64,000 bases of DNA, taken from Pseudomonas putida (GTDB lineage Bacteria; Pseudomonadota; Gammaproteobacteria; Pseudomonadales; Pseudomonadaceae). Of this stretch, positions 50,603 to 62,321 are shown piece by piece. Every line of letters begins with the position of its first letter. Position 1 is the stretch's first letter. The position numbers and the translations under genes are program-made. Below the pieces are notes generated by a model. It was given only the letters and a program-made list of their open reading frames with translations, searched no databases and was not told the origin of the DNA. The stretch lies in NCBI RefSeq assembly GCF_028682395.1, contig NZ_JANHLC010000004.1, positions 434,001 to 498,000 of the forward strand. Reading direction: 5' to 3'.

Positions 50603-53600
50603 TCAGGCGGCTTTTGCCGGTTCCTTGATCCGGTACCAGGCCACATACAGCGCCGGCAGGAACAACAGCGTCAGCAGGGTGGCGACGATAATCCCGCCAA
50701 TCATCGCGTAGGCCATCGGCCCCCAGAAGACTTCCCGGGCGATGGGGATCATCCCCAGGCTGGCGGCGGCAGCGGTCAGCAAAATCGGCCGACGCCGATG
50801 CTCGGTGGCTTCGACCACCGCATCCCAGGGCTGATAACCCTCACGCTCGAAGGCATCGATCTGGGTCACCAGGATCACCGAGTTGCGGATGATGATCCCG
50901 ATCAGCGCCAGGATCCCCAGGATCGCCACAAAGCCCATGGGCGTTCCGGTCGGCACCAGTGCCAGCACCACACCGATCAGGCCTAGCGGCGCAACACTGG
51001 CCACCAGGAACATCTTCTGCACGCTGTGCAGCTGGATCATCAGGAACGTCGCCATCAGGAACAACATCAGCGGCACCACCTTGGCAATCGGCCCCTGGGC
51101 CTTGCCGCTTTCCTCTACGGTGCCGCCGGTCGCGACCTTGTAGCCCACCGGCAGGCTGGCGGCAAACTCGTCGATCTTCGGCTTCAGTTGCTTGACCAGG
51201 TCGGTCGGCTGAATCTCGCCGTTCACCGCAGCCTTGAGGGTGATGGTGGGCTTGCGGTCACGACGCCAGACCAGCGGCTGCTCCAGTTCGTAGCGCACCG
51301 TGGCGAAGGCCAGCAATGGAATCGAGGTGCCGTTGGGGGTGACGATCTGCAAGTTCTGCAGGGTTTCCGGTGAGCCACGCTCGCTGTCCACCGCCCGGCC
51401 GACCACGTTGATCAGGTAGATATCGTCCTTGACCTGGGTCACTGGGGCGCCGCTGACAATGCTGTTCATCAGTTTGGCCACATCCTCCGAAGACAGCCCC
51501 AACTGACGCGCCTTGTCCTGGGCAATATCAATGCGCAACACCTTGCCCGGCTCGTTCCAGTCATAGATGGTTTCGCCGACATTGGGGTTTTCATCCAGCA
51601 CCTTGGCCAAGGCCAGGGCGTGCTTGCGCACCTGGTCGATATCCGGCCCGCTGATCCGGTACTGCAGAGGCCGGCCCACCGGCGGGCCCATTTCCAGGGT
51701 CTGGACAAAGCTACCAATGCCGACAAAGTCCTCGCGCAGGCGTTTGTTCAGGCGTTCGATCAAGCCCGCGCGCTGCTCCAGGCCCTTGCTGACAATCACC
51801 AACTGGGCGTAATAGGGGTTCTGCAATTGCTGGTCGAGGGGCAAGTAGAAACGGATCGCGCCCTCACCGATATAGGTGCTCCAGTGCTCGATATCCGGGT
51901 CATCCTTGAGGGTCGCTTCCAGGCGGTCGACGGCCCTGCGCGTCTCCTCGATAGAAGCATTTTGCGGCAGGTTGAGGTCCACCAGGACCTCCGGCCGGTC
52001 GGACGACGGGAAGAACTGGTTCTGCACAAACCGCATGCAGAACACCGACAGTACGAAAATCAGCAGGGTAATACCGATACACAGCCAGCGATTGCGCATC
52101 GACCACAGCAGCCCGCTGTTGAACGCCCGGCCAATGCGCCCCGGCTCTGCGGAATGAGGCTTGATGTTCTGGCTGAGGATGTGCACGCCGAGGACCGGGG
52201 CAAACAGCACCGCGACCACCCACGACACCAGCATCGCCACCGCGATCACCGCAAACAGGGTGAAGGTGTACTCGCCGGCCGAACTGGCATTGAGACCGAT
52301 GGGCACGAAACCGGCCACGGTCACCAAGGTCCCGGTCAGCATCGGGAAGGCCGTTGAGGTGTAGGCAAAGGTCGCCGCCTGTTCCTTGGTATCGCCCAGC
52401 TCCAGGCGCGTGACCATCATCTCCACGGTGATCATGGCGTCGTCCACCAGCAGCCCCAGGGCGATAATCAAGGCACCCAGGGAAATCCGCTGCATGGTGA
52501 TGCCGCTGTACTCCATAAAGACAAAGACCAGCGCCAGCACCAGCGGGATCGAACAGGCCACTACCAGCCCGGCACGCAGGCCGAGGCTGATAAAGCTGAC
52601 GACCAGGACGATGATCACCGCTTCGAACAAGGCCCCGGTAAAACCGCCGACCGCCTTCTCTACCACCACGGCCTGGTCCGAAACGTTGTGCACGCCCACG
52701 CCGACCGGCAGGTCGGCCGTCAGGCTGGCCATGCGCGCGTGCAGGTCGCGGCCGAACTCCTGGATATTGCCACCCGGCTTCATGGCCACGGCCAGGCCGA
52801 TGGCCGGCTGGCCATTGAAGCGAAACTGCGGGGTCGGCGGGTCGACATAGCCACGACTGATCTCGGCGATATCTGCCAACCGGTAGAAACGGTCGTTCAG
52901 TTTCAGGTTAACCGTCTCCAGGTCTTTTTCCGACGCGTACTGCCCGCTGGTGCGCACGGAAATTCGCTCCGGCCCAGCCTCGATCACCCCGGCCGGGGTC
53001 ACCGCGTTCTGTTGTTGCAGGCTCTCGACGACCTGGCGCTGGTCAATGCCCAAGGCCGCCAGCTTACGGGTGGAGAAATTCAGGTAGAGCACTTCGTCCT
53101 GCTCGCCAATCATCTCGACCTTGCCCAGGTTGGGCACATCGCGAATCCCGGCCCGGACCTGCTCGACATAATCGCGCAGTTGGCGCATCGACAGGCCATC
53201 GCTGGTAAAGGCGAAGACCGAGCCATAGACATCACCGAACTCATCGTTGAAGCCCGGCCCCTGGATACCCTGGGGAAAGCTGCCGCGGATATCGTCGATC
53301 TTCTTGCGCACCTGGTACCAGATCTGCGGAATGTCCTTGCCGCTGGTGGTGTCGCGCAGATACACGTAGACCGTCGATTCACCGGGGCGGGTGTAGCTTT
53401 TCACGTAATCCAGCGAATCGAGTTCCTCAAGTTTTTTCTCGATCCGGTCGGTGACCTGTTCCAGGGTTTCATCCACCGTGGCGCCGGGCCATTTGGTCTG
53501 GATGATCATGGTCTTGATGGTAAAGGACGGGTCTTCCTCGCGGCCCAGGTTGAAATAGGAAAACACCCCCATCAACAGGGCGACAAACATCAGGTACCAG

Positions 53601-53653
53601 ACGAACGACTGGTGTTTGAGGGCCCACTCGGACAGGTTGAAACTCCCTTTCAT
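50603..53653 (-). CDS. RND efflux transporter, TriC-like
   Basis: A 1016-residue inner-membrane proton antiporter of the HAE-1 RND class. It starts with a membrane helix (WYLMFVALLMGVFSYFNLG), has two large periplasmic loops and twelve predicted helices. The proton-relay aspartates are in LGLLVDDAMITVEMMV. It lies after two adaptor genes, coupled by ATGA overlaps; this is the P. aeruginosa TriABC plan, in which both adaptors are needed and triclosan is a substrate. No outer-membrane channel gene is nearby; TriABC borrows OpmH. Confidence 0.9.
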   Translation of the reverse strand: MKGSFNLSEWALKHQSFVWYLMFVALLMGVFSYFNLGREEDPSFTIKTMIIQTKWPGATVDETLEQVTDRIEKKLEELDSLDYVKSYTRPGESTVYVYLRDTTSGKDIPQIWYQVRKKIDDIRGSFPQGIQGPGFNDEFGDVYGSVFAFTSDGLSMRQLRDYVEQVRAGIRDVPNLGKVEMIGEQDEVLYLNFSTRKLAALGIDQRQVVESLQQQNAVTPAGVIEAGPERISVRTSGQYASEKDLETVNLKLNDRFYRLADIAEISRGYVDPPTPQFRFNGQPAIGLAVAMKPGGNIQEFGRDLHARMASLTADLPVGVGVHNVSDQAVVVEKAVGGFTGALFEAVIIVLVVSFISLGLRAGLVVACSIPLVLALVFVFMEYSGITMQRISLGALIIALGLLVDDAMITVEMMVTRLELGDTKEQAATFAYTSTAFPMLTGTLVTVAGFVPIGLNASSAGEYTFTLFAVIAVAMLVSWVVAVLFAPVLGVHILSQNIKPHSAEPGRIGRAFNSGLLWSMRNRWLCIGITLLIFVLSVFCMRFVQNQFFPSSDRPEVLVDLNLPQNASIEETRRAVDRLEATLKDDPDIEHWSTYIGEGAIRFYLPLDQQLQNPYYAQLVIVSKGLEQRAGLIERLNKRLREDFVGIGSFVQTLEMGPPVGRPLQYRISGPDIDQVRKHALALAKVLDENPNVGETIYDWNEPGKVLRIDIAQDKARQLGLSSEDVAKLMNSIVSGAPVTQVKDDIYLINVVGRAVDSERGSPETLQNLQIVTPNGTSIPLLAFATVRYELEQPLVWRRDRKPTITLKAAVNGEIQPTDLVKQLKPKIDEFAASLPVGYKVATGGTVEESGKAQGPIAKVVPLMLFLMATFLMIQLHSVQKMFLVASVAPLGLIGVVLALVPTGTPMGFVAILGILALIGIIIRNSVILVTQIDAFEREGYQPWDAVVEATEHRRRPILLTAAAASLGMIPIAREVFWGPMAYAMIGGIIVATLLTLLFLPALYVAWYRIKEPAKAA

Positions 53654-54720
53654 TGCGGGCTTTCCTCATTGATTTTGACTTTCTGTCCGGGCTTCAGGCT
53701 ATTCACCCCGGCGCTGACCACACGCTCGCCCGCCTTGACTCCGGACGCCAGGAGCATGCGACCGGCGTTGCGGCTCAACACCTTGACCGCGCGCGGGGAG
53801 ACCGTCTGGGTCTGGCTGTCGATCAGCCAGATCCGTGTCTGCCCGTCGACCTCCTGCAGTGCCGACAACGGCAGCTCGGTGCGCGGTTCGATGGCCGTGC
53901 TGAGGGTTACGCTGATCGAGGTGCCGAGGCGAAACGCCGCCGGTGTCTGGTCCAGGGTCAGCCGCGCACGGCGAGTGCGCGTTGCACTGTCGGCCTGGGG
54001 TTCGATTTCACGCAGATGGGCCCGGGTGTTGACCCCTGGATCCAGCTGGCCGGCCACCAGGAACTCGACCCCTGCCGCCAGTTCATCGGCCAGGGTCGTG
54101 GGCAAGTCGATCACCGCTTCCTTGATATCCGGGCGCGCCAGGGTCACCACTTCCTGGCCGGCGCTGACCACCTGCCCGGCTTCGGCACGCCAATCGGTGA
54201 CCACGGCCGCATGATCGGTGCGCAGTTCGCTGTAGGCCAACTGGTCGCGTGCCTGGCTGACGGCGGCCTTGGCCTGGGTCAGGGAGGCCGCGGTGGTCTT
54301 CAGTTCGGTCTGGGCGATATCGAGCTGGGCCTGGGCGCCTACACCGCGCTGGAACAGTTCCAGCTGGCGTCGGGCATTGGCCTGGGCATTGATCAACTGG
54401 GCCTGGACCCGCGCCAAGTCACCCTCGGCCGCGCGCAACTGGTTGCGCTGGTCGGTCGGATCAAGGGTGGCAAGCAGAGCGCCCTTTTCCACCTCGCTGC
54501 CGACATCCACGTTGCGCCGGGCAATGCGCCCCGCCACCCGAAAGCCCAGGGTGCTTTCATAGCGCGCCTGGATGGTCCCGGCGAAACGCCCGAGGCTCTG
54601 CTCGATCTCGGGCCGAACTTCGACAAAAACCACCGGCCGCACCGGATCCGGTGGCGGTTGTTCCTTCGAGCAGGCGGCCAGGGTCAGGCAGCCGAGCAGG
54701 ATCCATGGCGTCGGCTTCAT
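53650..54720 (-). CDS. RND membrane fusion protein, TriB-like
   Basis: A 356-residue adaptor lipoprotein. Leader MKPTPWILLGCLTLAACSK with lipobox LAAC, so C17 is acylated. Lipoyl half-motif in IARRNVDVGSEVEKGALLAT; the helical hairpin runs from about residues 85 to 150; beta-barrel and membrane-proximal parts follow. The start overlaps the triA stop by four bases and its stop overlaps triC. It bridges the pump and channel across the periplasm. Confidence 0.9.
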   Translation of the reverse strand: MKPTPWILLGCLTLAACSKEQPPPDPVRPVVFVEVRPEIEQSLGRFAGTIQARYESTLGFRVAGRIARRNVDVGSEVEKGALLATLDPTDQRNQLRAAEGDLARVQAQLINAQANARRQLELFQRGVGAQAQLDIAQTELKTTAASLTQAKAAVSQARDQLAYSELRTDHAAVVTDWRAEAGQVVSAGQEVVTLARPDIKEAVIDLPTTLADELAAGVEFLVAGQLDPGVNTRAHLREIEPQADSATRTRRARLTLDQTPAAFRLGTSISVTLSTAIEPRTELPLSALQEVDGQTRIWLIDSQTQTVSPRAVKVLSRNAGRMLLASGVKAGERVVSAGVNSLKPGQKVKINEESPQ

Positions 54721-55826
54721 GGCTGTTTTTCCGGTGAGGGGCTGGCTGATACCGCGGAGCGATCGGCGATTTCCACCCGACTGCCGGGGTGCAGCAGTTG
54801 CCCGCCGGCCACCACCACCCGCTCGCCCGTCTCAAGGCCCGCGCTAAGGATCACCTGGCCAGTCAGGTAGCGGCTCACCTTGACCGGTTGCAGCCGCGCC
54901 TTGTCGTGTTCATCCAGTACCCAGACCGCCGGCTCGCTGACATCCTTGGTCAACGCCGACCAGGGCAGCGCGATACCGGCCTTGGTCGGCGCTGACAGCG
55001 TCGCGCTGACCACCGCCCCCAGGTCCATGCCGGCCGGCAGCGTTTCGAGGGCGACCTTGACCTGCAGGGTACCGCTCTGCGCCGAAACGGCCGGGGTCAC
55101 TTCACGGACCTGGCCTTGGGTCCGGATCGACGGATTGTCCAGCAGGGTCACCTGGATCGGCGCATCCCCGGGCGGCTCGACCAGCAGCGACTCATAGACA
55201 TTGAACACTGCATCGCGCCCGCCATCGCGGGCCAGGCTGAAGATCGGCATGGTCGCCTGCACCACCTGCCCGACCTCGGCCTGGCGCGCGGTTATCACCC
55301 CGGGGGCCTCGGCGACCAGGGCGGTGTAGCTCAATTGTTCACGGGCATTGGCCAACTGCGCCTGGGCAGCCACCAGGGCGCTTTTGCTGCTCAGCAGCCC
55401 GGCCTGGGCCGCGTCGTATTCACTCTGGCTGGTGTAGCCCTTGGGCAGCAGCTTGCGCTGGCGCTCAAAGGCCGCGCTGGTCTGCTGCACCCGCGCCTGG
55501 GCCGCGCTGACTTCGGCCTGGGCGCTGTCGACATTGGTCTGTAGATCCTTGGGGTCGAGGCGGGCCAGCACCTGTTGCGCAGACACCCGATCACCGACAT
55601 CCACCAGGCGCTGAATGATCTTGCCACCGACGCGAAAGGACAGATCGGTCTGGACCCGTGCCTGGATATCGCCGGTCATGGTGACGAGGTTGGCAAAATC
55701 GCCTCGCTGCACTTCCTGGACCAGGACGCGCGGCCGCGTCGGCTCCTGCGGCGGCGCCTTGCCGCAACCGACCAGTAGCGCGACCAGCGCCAAGCCCATC
55801 CTCCCCTTGAATCGCCACCGCGTCAT
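54717..55826 (-). CDS. RND membrane fusion protein, TriA-like
   Basis: A 369-residue adaptor lipoprotein with lipobox LVGC in LALVALLVGCGK. The lipoyl region includes GKIIQRLVDVGDRVSAQQVL and the coiled hairpin spans about residues 90-165. It is a paralogue of the next gene, and having two adaptors in one pump is the special feature of the Tri type. First gene of the operon, with a small inverted repeat upstream. Confidence 0.9.
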   Translation of the reverse strand: MTRWRFKGRMGLALVALLVGCGKAPPQEPTRPRVLVQEVQRGDFANLVTMTGDIQARVQTDLSFRVGGKIIQRLVDVGDRVSAQQVLARLDPKDLQTNVDSAQAEVSAAQARVQQTSAAFERQRKLLPKGYTSQSEYDAAQAGLLSSKSALVAAQAQLANAREQLSYTALVAEAPGVITARQAEVGQVVQATMPIFSLARDGGRDAVFNVYESLLVEPPGDAPIQVTLLDNPSIRTQGQVREVTPAVSAQSGTLQVKVALETLPAGMDLGAVVSATLSAPTKAGIALPWSALTKDVSEPAVWVLDEHDKARLQPVKVSRYLTGQVILSAGLETGERVVVAGGQLLHPGSRVEIADRSAVSASPSPEKQP

Positions 55827-56087: not shown

Positions 56088-56216
56088 ATGTACAAGCAAC
56101 CCCGTTTGCCTCACACCCGACCACCGGAAAAGCTCGACCCCGAGAACGTGCTCAAGCTGCTGGTCGCTCTGCGCCGGGCCGTCAAGCCACAACCGAATGA
56201 AACACCGCTCGCCTGA
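56088..56216 (+). CDS. Small ORF, 42 residues, proline-rich basic protein
   Basis: A short frame with an unusually good ribosome site (GAGGAAG, about 8 bases before the ATG). The product begins MYKQPRLPHTRPPEKLDPEN and ends with a short helix-like part (VLKLLVALRRAVKPQP). It is divergent from triABC. No homologue is recognised. The ribosome site and compact placement favour a real gene, but a chance frame cannot be excluded. Confidence 0.5.
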   Translation: MYKQPRLPHTRPPEKLDPENVLKLLVALRRAVKPQPNETPLA

Positions 56217-56231
56217 TTTTTCAGGCAACAC

Positions 56232-56267
56232 AAAAAACGCCGAGGGCTGGTAGCAGCCGTCGGCGTT
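56232..56267 (-). terminator. Rho-independent terminator of metQ
   Basis: AACGCCGA / TCGGCGTT with an inner GGCTG / CAGCC stem. On the minus strand six T residues follow. Twenty-three bases after the metQ stop. Confidence 0.88.
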
Positions 56268-56290
56268 GAAGTCTTGAAGGGTGTGGCGAA

Positions 56291-57073
56291 TCAGAACGCC
56301 GGCAGTACCGCGCCGCTGTACTTCTTCTCGATAAAGGCTTTGACCTCGGGACTGGTCAGAGCCTTGGCCAGTTTCTGGATCGCCGCGCTGTCCTTGTTGT
56401 CCGGACGGGCCACCAGGAAGTTAACGTAAGGCGAATCGGCACCTTCGATGATCAAGGCATCCTTGGCCGGGTTCAGGCCGGCTTCCAGCGCATAGTTGGT
56501 GTTGATCATGTCCAGGTCGACCTGATCCAGCACGCGTGGCAGCAAGGCCGACTCCAGCTCCTTGAACTTCAGGTTTTTCGGGTTGGACTTGATGTCCTTG
56601 GGCGTAGCTAGAGCGTTCTTGGGATCCTTGAGTTCGATCAGCCCGGCCTTTTGCAGCAGCAGCAAGGCACGGCCGCTGTTGCTGCCCTCGTTGGGAATCG
56701 CCACGGTGGCGCCGTCCTTGAGTTCAGCCAGGCTTTTGACTTTCTTCGAGTAGCCGCCAAACGGCTCGACGTGTACGCCGATCACGGTCACCAGGTTCGT
56801 GCCCTTGCCTTCGTTGAAGTTCTTCAAGTACGGCAGGGTCTGGAAGTAGTTGGCATCCAGGCGCTTCTGGTCGACCTGGACATTGGGCTGGACGTAGTCG
56901 GTGAAGACCTTGATTTCCAGGTCCACGCCTTCCTTGGCCAAGGTCGGCTTGATCAGCTCGAGGATCTCGGCATGGGGAACCGGCGTCGCGGCTACTACCA
57001 GTTTATCGTTGGCCTGGGCCAGGCCGGCGGTCAGGGCTGCCGCCAGTGCGGTAAACAACAGAACCTTTTTCAT
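56291..57073 (-). CDS. metQ: Methionine-binding ABC transporter protein, MetQ/NlpA family
   Basis: A 260-residue periplasmic binding protein. It has a type I signal peptide (MKKVLLFTALAAALTAGLA, then QAND) rather than the lipobox of E. coli MetQ. The fold marks KLVVAATPVPHAEILELIKP and VFTDYVQPNVQVDQKRLDAN are characteristic, as is AIPNEGSNSGRALLLLQKAG. No metN or metI is next to it, so it must use a membrane complex from elsewhere. It follows the AAA+ gene in the same direction after 175 bases that carry a direct repeat, so it probably has its own promoter. Confidence 0.9.
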   Translation of the reverse strand: MKKVLLFTALAAALTAGLAQANDKLVVAATPVPHAEILELIKPTLAKEGVDLEIKVFTDYVQPNVQVDQKRLDANYFQTLPYLKNFNEGKGTNLVTVIGVHVEPFGGYSKKVKSLAELKDGATVAIPNEGSNSGRALLLLQKAGLIELKDPKNALATPKDIKSNPKNLKFKELESALLPRVLDQVDLDMINTNYALEAGLNPAKDALIIEGADSPYVNFLVARPDNKDSAAIQKLAKALTSPEVKAFIEKKYSGAVLPAF

Positions 57074-57168
57074 GCAGTGTCCTTATCGAAAATCACGGTC
57101 ATCAGCGACGACAGCTTCAAGTGGGGTGCCGATGACCTGATGTCAGCGGCGTGGGGCGGACAATAACG

Positions 57169-57201
57169 ATATTTTTTATTCCCGAACAATATCTTTTATT
57201 C
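57169..57201. promoter_or_regulatory. Direct repeat in the metQ promoter region
   Basis: ATATTTTTTATTC (57169-57181) and ATATCTTTTATTC (57189-57201) are 12/13 identical and spaced 20 bases apart, about two helix turns, on one face of the DNA. Likely regulator sites; they include a TATTC element as in the other leaders. Confidence 0.4.
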
Positions 57202-57248
57202 ACTTTGATATTCCATTTTGCTCATACAGCGCTGCACCCGCGCTGCAC

Positions 57249-58160
57249 CTACAAGGTCGCCAGCAGGCGCTTGAGGGCCGCGCGCTCTTCGGGCGAGCCC
57301 TGAGCAATCAGGCGTTCCACCCGGGCCAGGGCCGATACCTGTTCCGGTAGGTTCAGATGCTCGGGCAGGATCTCCTCGCCAGTACTGACCAGCAAGGCAA
57401 AGTGAATGACGTTTTCCAGCTCGCGGGTATTGCCCTGCCAGTCGTGGCGCTCCAGCACCCGCTGCGCGCTTTCACTGATCAGGGGCACCGCCAGGTTCAG
57501 GCGCTGGCTGTAGATCCCCAGGAAATACTCGGCCAGCGGCAGGATGTCGCCGACCCGCTCGCGCAAGGCCGGCAGGTCCAGCCGCCCTTCGCTGAGGTAG
57601 TGATAAAGACGTTCATGGAACTTGCCGGCGCTGACCGCCTGGGCCAGATCGATACTGGTCGCGGCCACCAGGCGCACATCGACCGGGCTAGGCTGCTGGG
57701 CCCCTACGCGGGTGACTTCGTGATTCTCCAGGGCGGCCAGCAATTTGATCTGGATCGGCAGGGGCAGATCGCCGATTTCATCCAGGTACAGGGTGCCGCC
57801 GTTGGCCGAGCCAAACCAGCCGGCGCGACTGCTCGCCGACCCGGCATGCGCCCCCGGGGCATGACCAAACAGCTCGGCATCGGCATAAGTCGGGCTGATC
57901 GCCCCGCAGTTGACCGAGACAAACAAGCCACCGCGATCACTGGCCCGGTGGATATGCCGGGCCAGCAGCTCCTTGCCGCTGCCGGTTTCACCACGAATCA
58001 ACACCGGCAGGGCCTTGGGCGCCAGGTGCTCGAGGTCTTCACGCAGTTGCCGCGAACGCGGGTCGACAAACACCAGCGCCTTGGCGCGAATGCTCAGCGG
58101 GCTTTTCTCCGCGTCGGGAAAGGTCAGCAGCGGCTGGCCGAAGGTTTCATGCAGGCTCAT
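57249..58160 (-). CDS. Degenerate sigma-54 activator-like AAA+ protein
   Basis: A 303-residue protein consisting almost only of the AAA+ domain of sigma-54 activators. Walker A is GETGSGKE (57-64), Walker B GGTLYLDEI (121-129), sensor I RLVAAT (163-168), and WQGNTRELENV near 241-251 is intact. But the sigma-54 contact loop GAFTGA reads GAHAGS (103-108), both arginine fingers of the FRxDLyyRL segment are lost (FHERLYHYL, 181-189), and the C-terminus lacks a Fis-type helix-turn-helix. So ATP may be bound, but normal activation of sigma-54 polymerase looks unlikely. It follows a hydrolase gene after a 62-base gap. Function unknown. Confidence 0.85.
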   Translation of the reverse strand: MSLHETFGQPLLTFPDAEKSPLSIRAKALVFVDPRSRQLREDLEHLAPKALPVLIRGETGSGKELLARHIHRASDRGGLFVSVNCGAISPTYADAELFGHAPGAHAGSASSRAGWFGSANGGTLYLDEIGDLPLPIQIKLLAALENHEVTRVGAQQPSPVDVRLVAATSIDLAQAVSAGKFHERLYHYLSEGRLDLPALRERVGDILPLAEYFLGIYSQRLNLAVPLISESAQRVLERHDWQGNTRELENVIHFALLVSTGEEILPEHLNLPEQVSALARVERLIAQGSPEERAALKRLLATL

Positions 58161-58177
58161 GGCAGACTCCCGCCGAG

Positions 58178-58195
58178 CCCCGTCCGCAGACGGGG
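58178..58195. other. Intercistronic hairpin between hydrolase and AAA+ genes
   Basis: CCCCGTC-CGCA-GACGGGG, a perfect 7-bp stem in the 62-base gap, just upstream of the AAA+ ribosome site. It has no T-tract; it may shield or stabilise the mRNA. Confidence 0.5.
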
Positions 58196-58222
58196 AGGCG
58201 TTGAACAGAAGGGAAAAGGTAA

Positions 58223-58804
58223 TCAGGCGCGAAGCAGGGAATGCTGTTCCATGCGGGTTTGCAGCCGGTACAGATAGGCGAACCCCTGCTCCCAGCGCTG
58301 GTGGCCGGACTTGACGTTGATATGCCCGGCACCACTGATAATCCCGGCTTCGGCACCCCAGTCACGGGCCAGCTCGAGGGCACGCGGGGCGCTGACGGCG
58401 GCATCGTTGTCGGAAGCAATGACCTGGCTGGGAAAGGGCAGCAAATGCCGCGGAATCGGGGCGAAATTGCGCAACGCCGGAGCGCATGCAGGGCGTTCGA
58501 CATCGGCCGGAGCCACCAACAGGGCGCCGCGAACCTGGCGCAGCAAATGCAGCGGCGCGCTCGCGGCCCAGTGGGCGACGGTGATGCAGCCCAGGCTGTG
58601 GGCAATCAGAATCACCGGCGTGCTGTCGGCGACGATCGCCTCGGCCAGTGCCGCCACCCAGTCTTCGCGGCGCGGGGTCAGCCAGTCGGCCTGCTCCACC
58701 CGCGCGCTGTTCGGCAGGCTGTTTTGCCAATGGCTTTGCCAGTGATCTTCGCTAGACCCTTGCCAGCCCGGCACAATCAGATAGCGAATCGACTCATTGC
58801 GCAT
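58223..58804 (-). CDS. RBBP9/YdeN-type serine hydrolase
   Basis: A 193-residue alpha/beta hydrolase of the small PF06821 type. The nucleophile elbow is LIAHSLGC (Ser near residue 70), the acid is probably in IASDNDAAV, and the histidine in GAGHINVKSG. An N-terminal IRYLIVPGWQGSSEDHW is a family mark. Substrate unknown. It is the first gene of a likely two-gene unit with the AAA+ protein and has an AT-rich leader with a TATTC dyad. Start ATG follows GCAGGAGGC. Confidence 0.87.
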   Translation of the reverse strand: MRNESIRYLIVPGWQGSSEDHWQSHWQNSLPNSARVEQADWLTPRREDWVAALAEAIVADSTPVILIAHSLGCITVAHWAASAPLHLLRQVRGALLVAPADVERPACAPALRNFAPIPRHLLPFPSQVIASDNDAAVSAPRALELARDWGAEAGIISGAGHINVKSGHQRWEQGFAYLYRLQTRMEQHSLLRA

Positions 58805-58858
58805 GGGGTGCGCCTCCTGCAGCGTGTGCGTTGAGGAGAAGTATAGGCAGGGGATATA

Positions 58859-58874
58859 TATTCGTTAAGGAATA
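58859..58874. promoter_or_regulatory. TATTC-N6-GAATA dyad upstream of the hydrolase gene
   Basis: TATTC-GTTAAG-GAATA, 55 bases before the hydrolase start, in an AT-rich leader. Spacer is one base shorter than in the ssuE copy, with which it shares TTAAGGAATAA. Confidence 0.45.
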
Positions 58875-58927
58875 AGAAGCTATTTATTAATCACTGTTAG
58901 CTATATAAGAAAAATAAACAAGAAGAC

Positions 58928-58963
58928 AAAAAAAAGGGCCGCACCCTGCCAAGGAGACGGCCC
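58928..58963 (-). terminator. Rho-independent terminator of tonB-exbB-exbD
   Basis: GGGCCG / CGGCCC with a 16-base loop; on the minus strand eight T residues follow. It lies 20 bases after the exbD stop. Confidence 0.85.
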
Positions 58964-58982
58964 GTAAAAAACGATAAAGGGC

Positions 58983-59384
58983 TCAACGTGCGGTAATCAC
59001 CGACAGTTTGGTAATCCCGGCCCGCTCGATGGACGCCATGGCTCGCGCCACTTCGCCGTAGTTCACACCATTGTCAGCCTGCAACTGCACACGCAGTTCA
59101 GGGTCCCTGGCCTTGGCCGACTGGAGATTGAATTCGAGCAGCCCGGGCTCGATTTCATCCTTGTTGATAAACACCTTGCCGCTGCCATCGATGCTGACCA
59201 CCAGCGGGTCCTTCTGCTCCACCGGTGCCACGGCCTCGGTCTTGGGCAGATTGATCGGAATGGCGTTGGTCAACAGAGGCGCCGTGACGATAAACACCAC
59301 CAGCAACACCAGCATCACGTCCACCAACGGGGTAACGTTGATCTCGCTCAGCACCTCGTCGCTGTCCTGGGTAGAGAAGGCCAT
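58983..59384 (-). CDS. exbD: TonB-system membrane protein ExbD
   Basis: A 133-residue inner-membrane protein with one helix (VDVMLVLLVVFIVTAPLL) and a periplasmic domain. The essential aspartate is in TPLVDVMLVLL near residue 21. With ExbB it makes the proton-driven motor that energises TonB. It begins one base after the exbB stop. Start MAFSTQDSDEVLSEI. Confidence 0.94.
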   Translation of the reverse strand: MAFSTQDSDEVLSEINVTPLVDVMLVLLVVFIVTAPLLTNAIPINLPKTEAVAPVEQKDPLVVSIDGSGKVFINKDEIEPGLLEFNLQSAKARDPELRVQLQADNGVNYGEVARAMASIERAGITKLSVITAR

Positions 59385-59385
59385 A

Positions 59386-60111
59386 TCAGGACGCCTCCTT
59401 CACTTTCTGCGCATTGCCCAGGGCCGCGGCTTTCTGGGCCGCTGGATGGACCAGCACGCGGAACGAACTCTTCTGCGCCAGGCTGTAGAAGTCGTGGGCA
59501 AAGTCATCGAGATCGGCTGCGGTCAGCTTCAGGCGACGCAGGAAATAGTTGTAAACCAGCACGGCCGGCACTGCGACGGCAATCCCCACGCCCGTCGCTA
59601 CCAGGGCCGCGCCAATCGGGCCAGCCACAGTTTCCAGGCTCGCCGAACCGGCTGCGCTGATGCCCTTCAACGCTTCCATGATCCCCCAAACCGTCCCGAA
59701 CAGGCCGATAAACGGCGAGGTGCTGCCAATACTGGCGACCACGGCCAGGCCGGTTTCCAGGGAACGTCGTTCGCGTACGATCTGCTGGCGCAGGGCACGC
59801 TCCAGACGGTCCTGATGGTTGATGGCCTGGCTCAGGTCCGCCGCAGGGGCCGTGTCGCCAACCTGGATCGCGGCATAACCGGCCTGGGCCACGCGGGCAG
59901 CGGCACCGGGGTAGGTCTCGCTCAGCTCAGCCGCCGAGTCGAGACTGGATGCGGCCCAGAAGTGTTGGTGAAACTTGCGGTCCTGGGCCCTGAGGCGGGC
60001 GAACTGCACACCCTTGAACAGGGCAAGGCCCCAGGTGGCGACCGAAAAGACCACCAGCAGCCAGATCACCGCGCTTTCGATGGATTCGAGTGGAGATGCC
60101 AGTAACGTCAT
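59386..60111 (-). CDS. exbB: TonB-system proton channel ExbB
   Basis: A 241-residue membrane protein with three helices: near residues 14-34 (AVIWLLVVFSVATWGLAL), then two after a long cytosolic loop. The family pattern LAVVASIGSTSPFIGLFGTV appears near residue 128, and GIAVAVPAVLVYNYF near residue 183. Pentameric channel of the ExbBD motor. Between tonB and exbD; starts 37 bases after the tonB stop. Confidence 0.94.
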   Translation of the reverse strand: MTLLASPLESIESAVIWLLVVFSVATWGLALFKGVQFARLRAQDRKFHQHFWAASSLDSAAELSETYPGAAARVAQAGYAAIQVGDTAPAADLSQAINHQDRLERALRQQIVRERRSLETGLAVVASIGSTSPFIGLFGTVWGIMEALKGISAAGSASLETVAGPIGAALVATGVGIAVAVPAVLVYNYFLRRLKLTAADLDDFAHDFYSLAQKSSFRVLVHPAAQKAAALGNAQKVKEAS

Positions 60112-60940: not shown

Positions 60941-61403
60941 TGATTCACTCCTGCGGTCTTCAACCAGAAACCGAGGCACCTTCGCGGCAACCTCGTGGGG
61001 TGAATCATCGACGGGAGGTTCTTATCTCTTAAAGTATTTTTTAAAGTTATTGATAGACCAAAATGACATATATAACCCCACAGAAAGCGGCCAGGCCCCG
61101 CCGTGCAAGGGCTGGCGCGGCACGCCTGAAAGCCCATGCCTTCCAGGCATTGAAAATATTGCCAAAAGGCATCGTTTTCTCCCTGTGCACGCTGGGTAGA
61201 AGCGTGTTTCTACCGCATTTTCCAGCGCTAAAACCCGGCGCCTACTGGACGGCGATAGCCCGGGGCAACATGGCTCTATTTATATTCTTTTTTGATCTAT
61301 CAATTTAAAATCATATTCATTGACGGAATATAAAGCTGTCTTTAAAACGTCAACGTTCTCCCCTACAGAGATCGGGTTCGCCTTCGATTCCCGGGACGTT
61401 TTT
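60941..61403. other. Divergent AT-rich region between tonB and LysR
   Basis: 463 bases. Two AT-rich zones flank a GC-richer centre: 61020-61080 facing tonB and 61265-61345 facing LysR. Both contain a related TCTATCAAT element in divergent orientation. A dyad ATGCCT-TCC-AGGCAT is at 61136-61150. A TATTC dyad lies at 61314-61330. No gene is supported. Confidence 0.65.
61314..61330. promoter_or_regulatory. TATTC-N7-GAATA dyad upstream of the LysR gene
   Basis: TATTC-ATTGACG-GAATA, perfect 5-bp arms with 7-base spacing identical to the ssuE copy, 73 bases before the LysR start. Fits a self-regulating LysR site (T-N11-A). Confidence 0.5.
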
Positions 61404-62321
61404 ATGGATCTTCGCCAACTGCGCTACCTGGTTGCCCTTAATGAACACCGCAGCTTCGTTCGCGGCGCCGAGGCCATGGGCATTACCCAGCCGGCCTTCA
61501 GCCGCAGCATCCAGGGCCTGGAACAGGAGCTGGGTTGCCTGCTGGTCGAGCGGGGGCACAAAGAGCTGCGCCCGACACCCCAGGGCCAGGTCGTGCTGCA
61601 ACATGCCCTGAGCCTGTTGCAGGGTGCAGCGCGCTTGAGCAGTGAGGTCGCGCGCATGGGGCAGCTCGACGCTGGCGAACTGCGCTTTGGCTGCCATCCG
61701 GCTGCGCTGGCGTTGGTGCCCGAAGCCGTGGCGGGGTTTATCCAGGCCTACCCCAACGTGCGCACCGGTTTTGAGGTGGACAATGACGAGCGACTGGGGC
61801 GACGCCTGATGCGCGAGGAGATCGAGTTCTTTGTCGGCGACCTGCGCCCTTTCGAAGCCGATCCCAACTTTCAGACGCTGGCACTGACACCTCGCCGAAG
61901 CGTGTTTTTCTGCCGGCCCGGGCATCCGTTACTGACCAAGGACAGCCTGTCCACCAACGATCTGTTTGCCTATCCGCTGGCCACCGCGCAGCTGGCACCG
62001 GGGACCCGCAAACGGCTGGCCAATCTGAGTGGACGTACCGATTTTGCACCGGCCATCGAGACCGAGTACTTCCCCGCGCTGGTGGACATCGTCCGGCGCA
62101 GCGACGCGATTGGCCTGGGCAGCGAAGTCGGCTTTCTTGAAGCCAGTGCCCAGGCGCCGCTGATGCGCCTGCAGTGGCGTAACCTGGCGACCAATATCGA
62201 TAGCCTGCACAGCCACTGCGCGATTGTCAGCCGGGCCGGCTTCCGCCTTTCGCCCGCGGCCCGGGCGATGGTGGATCGCCTGGTGGCGCTGGATCACCAA
62301 AGGCCCTCGGGCGCCTCATAG
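61404..62321 (+). CDS. LysR-family regulator
   Basis: A 305-residue regulator. The helix-turn-helix is MDLRQLRYLVALNEHRSF with ITQPAFSRSIQGLEQELG. Effector domain includes FGCHPAALALVPEAVAGF near residue 95 and the C-terminal AIGLGSEVGFLEASAQ. Start ATG at 61404, with the longer frame from 61320 rejected. It diverges from tonB-exbBD and carries a TATTC dyad in its own leader, so it could be the regulator reading these sites. Its target and effector are unknown. Confidence 0.9.
   Translation: MDLRQLRYLVALNEHRSFVRGAEAMGITQPAFSRSIQGLEQELGCLLVERGHKELRPTPQGQVVLQHALSLLQGAARLSSEVARMGQLDAGELRFGCHPAALALVPEAVAGFIQAYPNVRTGFEVDNDERLGRRLMREEIEFFVGDLRPFEADPNFQTLALTPRRSVFFCRPGHPLLTKDSLSTNDLFAYPLATAQLAPGTRKRLANLSGRTDFAPAIETEYFPALVDIVRRSDAIGLGSEVGFLEASAQAPLMRLQWRNLATNIDSLHSHCAIVSRAGFRLSPAARAMVDRLVALDHQRPSGAS

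Follow-up and report, generated by a model that had tools for sequence, protein, structure and literature searches.

Gene, domains, and C-terminal end

The analysed window is a stretch of 64,000 nucleotides from Pseudomonas putida (contig NZ_JANHLC010000004.1, positions 434,001 to 498,000), and its ORF list contains an open reading frame of 303 amino acids with an ATG start on the minus strand at 57249..58160. The encoded AAA+ protein was catalogued as a putative pseudo-bEBP from the ORF, Pfam, alignment, and AlphaFold2 (AF2) model. It comprises the Sigma54_activat domain (PF00158, E 1.2e-53) and lid (AAA_lid_14, PF25601, E 4.1e-19) found in bEBPs, and neither a regulatory nor a DNA-binding domain was found from Pfam and the tail length. 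The AF2 model, built from an alignment of 45 orthologues, had a mean pLDDT of 86.6 and a pTM of 0.80. When this model was compared with the PDB using Foldseek, the AAA+ domains of FlrC, NtrC1, FleQ, PspF, and other bEBPs were the closest; all of the 50 PDB matches listed were bEBP chains or their relatives, and the AAA+-only chains mostly had a TMt of 0.83–0.92.

The closest activators are proteins that we take to be of the SfnR type, and the copy in the window genome is L205 (contig G000:C46). The C-terminal tail of the window protein (residues 271–303; 57249..57350, minus strand) is variable in the family and was modelled as two helices. No helix-turn-helix (HTH) was detected by Pfam at E values up to 1 in the window protein, and no Pfam HTH was found in the orthologues L019 and L191. 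Among the controls, L206 scored an HTH (HTH_8) and the full-length SfnR-like L205 scored none; because Pfam missed the HTH of L205, the absence in the family was argued mainly from the tail length. The tail after GNxREL was 55 residues long in the window protein and 24–81 residues long in the family, compared with 108–126 residues in ten paralogues. The first-pass annotation had noted that no Fis-type HTH follows residue 280, which agrees with the Pfam result and, more strongly, with the short tail. Inspection by eye of the three frames of that strand between the stop codon and metQ revealed no HTH remnant.

A serine hydrolase gene (PF06821; 58223..58804, minus strand) lies directly upstream on the same strand, and a gene for a MetQ/NlpA-family lipoprotein (PF03180; 56291..57073, minus strand) lies downstream, confirming the co-orientation with a serine hydrolase and metQ proposed in the first-pass annotation. 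Promoter and terminator patterns in 56100–59500 did not exceed the range obtained from shuffles. Elsewhere in the window, an RND-type efflux gene and two adjoining membrane-fusion-protein-like genes (named from their translations) occupy 50603–55826, with a 4-base overlap between each gene and the next, and a LysR-family regulator gene (61320–62321, Pfam) is divergent from the tonB-exbB-exbD genes.

ATP site, arginine fingers, and loop in the orthologues

Residues were matched by alignment with Escherichia coli PspF taken from K-12. The 208 orthologue loci, some places of which were fetched twice, gave 176 distinct proteins; the g19 sequences were left out of this set, and before the orthologue counts, 16 proteins (10 paralogues and 6 other activators) were taken out and kept as controls. 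Most of the 176 proteins came from the best-matching genomes, and a recount on 44 proteins with less than 85% identity to each other gave the same residue picture as the full set.

In the aligned orthologues, the motifs that make up the cis half of the ATP site, namely Walker A, Walker B including the catalytic Glu, and sensor II, are invariant or nearly so. Walker A reads GETGSGKE in the window protein (residues 57–64; 57969..57992, minus strand), and its Lys was kept in 176/176 orthologues. Walker B reads GGTLYLDEIGD (residues 121–131; 57768..57800, minus strand), with the Asp kept in 175 and the catalytic Glu in all 176. The WQGNTREL block (residues 241–248; 57417..57440, minus strand) carries the sensor II Arg, R246, which corresponds to PspF R227 and was kept in 176/176. 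The L2 Arg (PspF R131) was also kept in 175 of the 176 orthologues.

By the same alignment, the fingers that form the trans half of the site are gone, as are the Asn of sensor I and E97, the residue that coordinates the loops. In the arginine-finger segment FHERLYHYL (residues 181–189; 57594..57620, minus strand), H182 aligns with PspF R162 and Y188 with PspF R168, placing both residues at the finger positions to which the first-pass annotation had assigned them. The finger of NtrC1 analogous to R168 touches the gamma-phosphate in trans (PMC7175178). The first finger position was occupied by His (110), Asn (27), Asp (21), Leu (12), or Ser (6) in the 176 orthologues and never by Arg, and the second was occupied by Tyr in 175 and by Arg in one (L191). 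PspF E97 at the base of L1 makes nucleotide-dependent contacts with R131 of L2, coordinating loop movement (PMC2941729); its position is taken by G117 in the window protein and by Gly in 176/176 orthologues, a change that the first-pass annotation had missed. The position of PspF F105 was Tyr in all 176 orthologues, and that of the switch Asn N64 was Ser in 37. The sensor I segment AATSID (residues 166–171; 57648..57665, minus strand) has S169 at the position of PspF N149, which was Ser in 176/176. Thus, the earlier statement that Walker A, Walker B, sensor I, and the WxGNxREL block are all kept holds for the Walker motifs and WQGNTREL, but not for sensor I.

The L1 loop, which in bEBPs carries GAFTGA and touches sigma-54 together with L2 (PMC7175178), reads GAHAGS at residues 103–108 (57837..57854, minus strand), aligned with PspF 83–88 as the earlier reading had it, and the exact GAFTGA motif was found in none of the 176 orthologues. 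An aromatic residue remained at the third loop position in 50/176 (Tyr in 46, Phe in 4), and the fourth position was Ser in 103 and Thr in 13; the retained aromatic residue and Thr indicate a loop that has degenerated but has not been deleted. Apart from the single second-finger Arg, the bEBP hallmarks absent in the orthologues are the GAFTGA loop, the two arginine fingers, the sensor I Asn/His, and E97; in the 16 controls, both fingers were Arg, sensor I was Asn or His, and E97 was Glu.

A relocated finger, i.e., an Arg at the Asp position of FRxDL, was present in 159/176 orthologues, and this idea was set aside because the other 17 lacked that Arg. The g22 sequences L173–L184 are among these 17 and read FLEGLQ, FLEGLR, or FLEPLR.

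Distribution, selection, and genomic setting

Among 38 relatives, an orthologue was present in 24 of the 25 genomes of the genus (the window genome included), and a larger sample of the genus gave matches at E <= 1e-95 in 369 of 398 genomes. Orthologues were read from 11 further genera of Pseudomonadaceae. No members were found beyond this family in 174 genomes of the order (E <= 1e-75) and 166 of the class (E <= 1e-70), thresholds below which a divergence like that of g19 could fall. Matches outside the family occurred only in G607, G881, and G895, and the one read from each (L248, L252, and L253) was canonical, with GAFTGA, FRxDLYYRL, and a long end; G607 has two matches, of which the canonical call covers one.

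The pooled dN/dS, calculated by the plain Nei–Gojobori method over 8673 pairs that are not independent of each other and whose synonymous sites are in places close to saturation, was 0.16 for the AAA+ core, 0.05 for Walker A, 0.04 for Walker B, 0.37 for the loop, and 0.49 for the tail, and the highest single-pair value in the core was 0.71. Judged from these ratios, the gene is under purifying selection, and the low values at the Walker motifs relative to the loop suggest that the nucleotide site still matters and the loop much less. Conservation in close homologues had been proposed earlier as a check; the altered loop and missing fingers were kept in the 176 proteins, and the contrary picture of a lone decayed copy among homologues bearing GAFTGA and fingers was looked for and did not appear. 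A lone decayed copy was ruled out by the presence in 369/398 genomes, the residues fixed in the 176 proteins, and dN/dS.

In a quick tree calculated with SH-aLRT and no bootstrap, 47 family sequences formed one clade (SH-aLRT 100, stem length 0.73). Its sister was a long-ended G[AS]FSGA group, at a fork with a support of 91, and the SfnR-like proteins came next. The family thus lies in a clade separate from the SfnR-like proteins, without their active residues. L206, L207, and L209–L212 represent the close paralogue, which has Arg at the two finger positions, a G[AS]FSGA loop, and a long C-terminal end. L191 (genus g24), a long branch with the segment FNRDLFERL, is possibly an intermediate or a reversal; because its second finger is still Arg, it does not follow that the two fingers were lost once in a common ancestor.

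A short-tailed sister branch was found in g19 (L257 in G415, L259 in G519, and L260 in G507), in which Walker A reads GEWGTGREL, with Lys replaced by Arg in 3/3 proteins. It joined the family with a support of 99, to be read with caution on account of its long branch (1.6). The distances between its members and a canonical SfnR-like gene are approximately 7, 7, and 14 kb, and the hydrolase is not adjoining in 3/3 loci. Given the replaced lysine in this branch, ATP binding may not be universal.

In 195 of the 208 orthologue loci (163 of the 176 distinct proteins), the gene immediately upstream, on the same strand, was that of the hydrolase, with a median gap of 55 bp, and the outer neighbours of the gene–hydrolase pair varied between genera. 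The 13 loci without an adjoining hydrolase comprised 12 of the 13 loci of genus g22 (the exception being L149) and the second copy of G482. This second copy (L195, G482:C1:2466566-2476351) has neighbours that are, by cluster membership, taurine-dioxygenase-like and transport-like genes.

The neighbouring genes were called with a simple ORF picker and clustered by blastp links, and one or two representatives per cluster were scanned with curated models. For the 53 loci with clustered neighbours, a sulfate-binding-protein cluster with a permease was found in 20, mostly divergent from the gene–hydrolase pair, and a metQ cluster member lay within the fetched flanks in 24; either a sulfate-binding-protein or a metQ cluster was present in the fetched flanks of 44 loci, and neither in nine. 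The representatives scoring above the curated cut-offs were a sulfate-binding protein, CysT, CysW, a sulfate ABC ATPase, the sulfur-starvation protein OscA, and the SsuA family, and those scoring below were SfnB/DszC-like, taurine-dioxygenase-like, and O-succinylhomoserine-sulfhydrylase-like proteins. The sulfate ABC ATPase (CysA-like) and SfnB/DszC-like representatives were taken from the hydrolase-only loci L226 and L240. Many loci of the genus of the window had exbB/exbD before the gene–hydrolase pair and metQ after it. The recurrence of sulfur neighbours across loci is in line with the earlier description of a sulfur-type region; gene neighbourhood is an association, not a function.

In g22, the gene stands by metQ, with a sulfhydrylase-like gene at several loci and with oxidase, BCCT, and OPT genes beyond (names read from the sequences). 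This order resembles what we take to be the order of PA3929–PA3934 in P. aeruginosa, and on that match, PA3932 was taken as the orthologue. A literature search found no functional study of this gene (PA3932). In a mutant transcriptome, PA3932 appears with a table value of −0.97 and PA3931 with −2.58 among the changed genes, and 30 of the 42 changed transcripts of that mutant concern sulfur (PMC8466066). According to these values, PA3932, the putative orthologue by gene order, co-varies with the sulfur regulon (PMC8466066).

Proposed function and alternative explanations

The family and the SfnR-type activators have approximately 51–57% identity, share an N-terminal SxRAxxxVFxDPxS segment, and both lack a receiver domain. 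In the ten paralogues examined, the loop is GAFTGA or G[AS]FSGA, the two fingers are Arg, and the sensor I Asn, E97, and the end of 108–126 residues are retained; apart from the second finger Arg of L191, the family has lost these features. FleT of Rhodobacter sphaeroides is likewise devoid of regulatory and DNA-binding domains and is called the only known bEBP without both (PMC7175178). FleT activates sigma-54 flagellar promoters with FleQ (PMC7277832), and its likeness to the family is one of domain content. HrpR and HrpS of Pseudomonas syringae also have no N-terminal regulatory domain and form hetero-hexamers, but both are working activators (PMC9542535). The lack of a functional GAFTGA loop is shared with NtrC of Caulobacter and Rhodobacter capsulatus, VspR, VpsR, DhaR, and YplP; however, in the NtrC examples, the loop is deleted and, in Caulobacter, the HTH is kept (PMC10274813, PMC3162934), whereas in the family, the loop length is mostly kept and the fingers and HTH are lost. 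A 2011 paper (PMC3162934) pointed to approximately 110 homologues in which GAFTGA deviates slightly. The literature search brought up no family described as lacking the loop, fingers, and HTH together, and the list of GAFTGA-defective proteins in PMC3162934 may already hold members.

The explanation that we favour, at slightly better than an even chance, is a fixed pseudo-activator derived from an SfnR-type ancestor and kept in Pseudomonadaceae as a regulator of sulfur limitation acting by protein contact. In this descent, an SfnR-type sigma-54 activator would have lost its DNA binding, the loop that contacts sigma-54, and its arginine fingers. The present protein is very probably unable to activate sigma-54 promoters, its homo-oligomer is probably unable to hydrolyse ATP normally, and a role in sulfur limitation is likely. 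The mode of action is proposed tentatively, with somewhat less than an even chance: protein contact, in which the likeliest form would be an ATP-binding, receiver-only subunit whose site is completed by another protein, for example, a canonical activator with which it forms a mixed ring. Such a subunit would bind ATP but neither donate fingers nor move the sigma-54 loop, and a ring of the protein alone would be inactive. The loss of the loop, fingers, and E97 together with the retention of R131 and the cis half would be expected of an ATP-binding, non-donating subunit, and the catalytic Glu, being retained, points to completion of the ATP site by a partner. The early steps of this explanation are far better supported than the partner.

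By co-occurrence in the 398 genus genomes, no obligate partner was found among the two nearest paralogue groups (SfnR-like and G[AS]FSGA). An SfnR-like match was found in 275 genomes at E <= 1e-100, a threshold at which a more diverged SfnR could be missed; at least 246 genomes had both the gene and an SfnR-like match and at least 94 had the gene only, which excluded an SfnR-like protein as the obligate partner at this threshold. The G[AS]FSGA paralogue was excluded by its presence in only 22/398. These counts bear on the alternative that the protein serves SfnR-type activators specifically, as a decoy or a modulating subunit. Its appeal is that SfnR-type proteins are the closest relatives, that activator paralogues are known to form hetero-oligomers (HrpR/HrpS, FleQ/FleT, RedR1/RedR2, and VnfA1/VnfA3; PMC9542535), and that the diverged g19 members lie within 7–14 kb of an SfnR-like gene in three genomes. 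However, with at least 94 carriers lacking an SfnR-like match and the nearest paralogue so rare, an SfnR-dedicated decoy is improbable. The first-pass annotation had suggested that the protein may bind ATP but act as a decoy, a partner-dependent subunit, or a regulator of another kind; the absence of activator parts was conserved across the genus and the 11 further genera, but the decoy dedicated to SfnR became unlikely, and the Arg in g19 qualifies ATP binding. The protein could instead be a dedicated partner of the adjoining serine hydrolase, serving as an ATP-binding adaptor, chaperone, or inhibitor in sulfur limitation unrelated to transcription. This is consistent with the pairing that persists while the outer neighbours change between genera, and in a sample of 198 family genomes, a hydrolase match was present in 99/99 scored carriers. 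Conversely, 59 of the 198 genomes, among which the g19 genomes are counted, had a hydrolase match and no scored family member, the two genes are apart in most g22 loci, for the second G482 copy, and in g19, and such pairing is equally expected of two co-regulated genes; we regard this alternative as rather unlikely.

Other readings leave the partner aside. The GAFTGA-less NtrC proteins of R. capsulatus and Caulobacter keep the ATP site and regulate sigma-70 promoters, and that of R. capsulatus reportedly needs ATP binding and not hydrolysis (PMC10274813), which would suit a stand-alone nucleotide switch or sigma-70-type regulator resembling them and VspR; however, Caulobacter NtrC has an HTH domain (PMC10274813), none was found in the family, and this reading is quite improbable. 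An unusual but working sigma-54 activator acting from solution has precedents in CtcC, FlgR, and FleT, which lack a DNA-binding domain (PMC3162934), and in the tolerance of PspF for a change of the loop Phe to Tyr (PMC2941729), the residue seen in 46/176 orthologues. Against the near-complete lack of finger Arg residues (0/176 and 1/176) and the complete lack of E97 and the sensor I Asn (0/176 each), its chance is slim. The fast loop and tail, the single core pair at 0.71, and a stop inside the aligned stretch in six of the matches listed (in the one that was read, L047, the frame ends in the tail) are features of a decaying pseudogene, and yet the strong constraint on the ATP site, the fixed derived residues, and the wide presence make decay a negligible prospect.

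Extended to the whole family, and more speculatively, the favoured pseudo-activator explanation would perhaps describe proteins having only the receiving half-site, completed by another protein, that tune the response to sulfur limitation across Pseudomonadaceae through rings with canonical activators or through gating of the hydrolase, with the g19 branch being a pure scaffold without the ATP-binding lysine. A match to PF00158, the "Sigma-54 interaction domain", would suggest an activator; such a match does not demonstrate sigma-54 dependence, and the sequence evidence argues against the members being conventional activators. If this explanation is right, a gene matched in 369 of 398 genus genomes has a function that its domain match does not imply, the control of sulfur limitation in Pseudomonas has a component for which no description was found, and the family is a natural test of the use of one half of an AAA+ ATP site. 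Most of the sampled Pseudomonas genomes keep this gene, usually near genes for sulfur uptake, and it probably does a job other than that of an activator.
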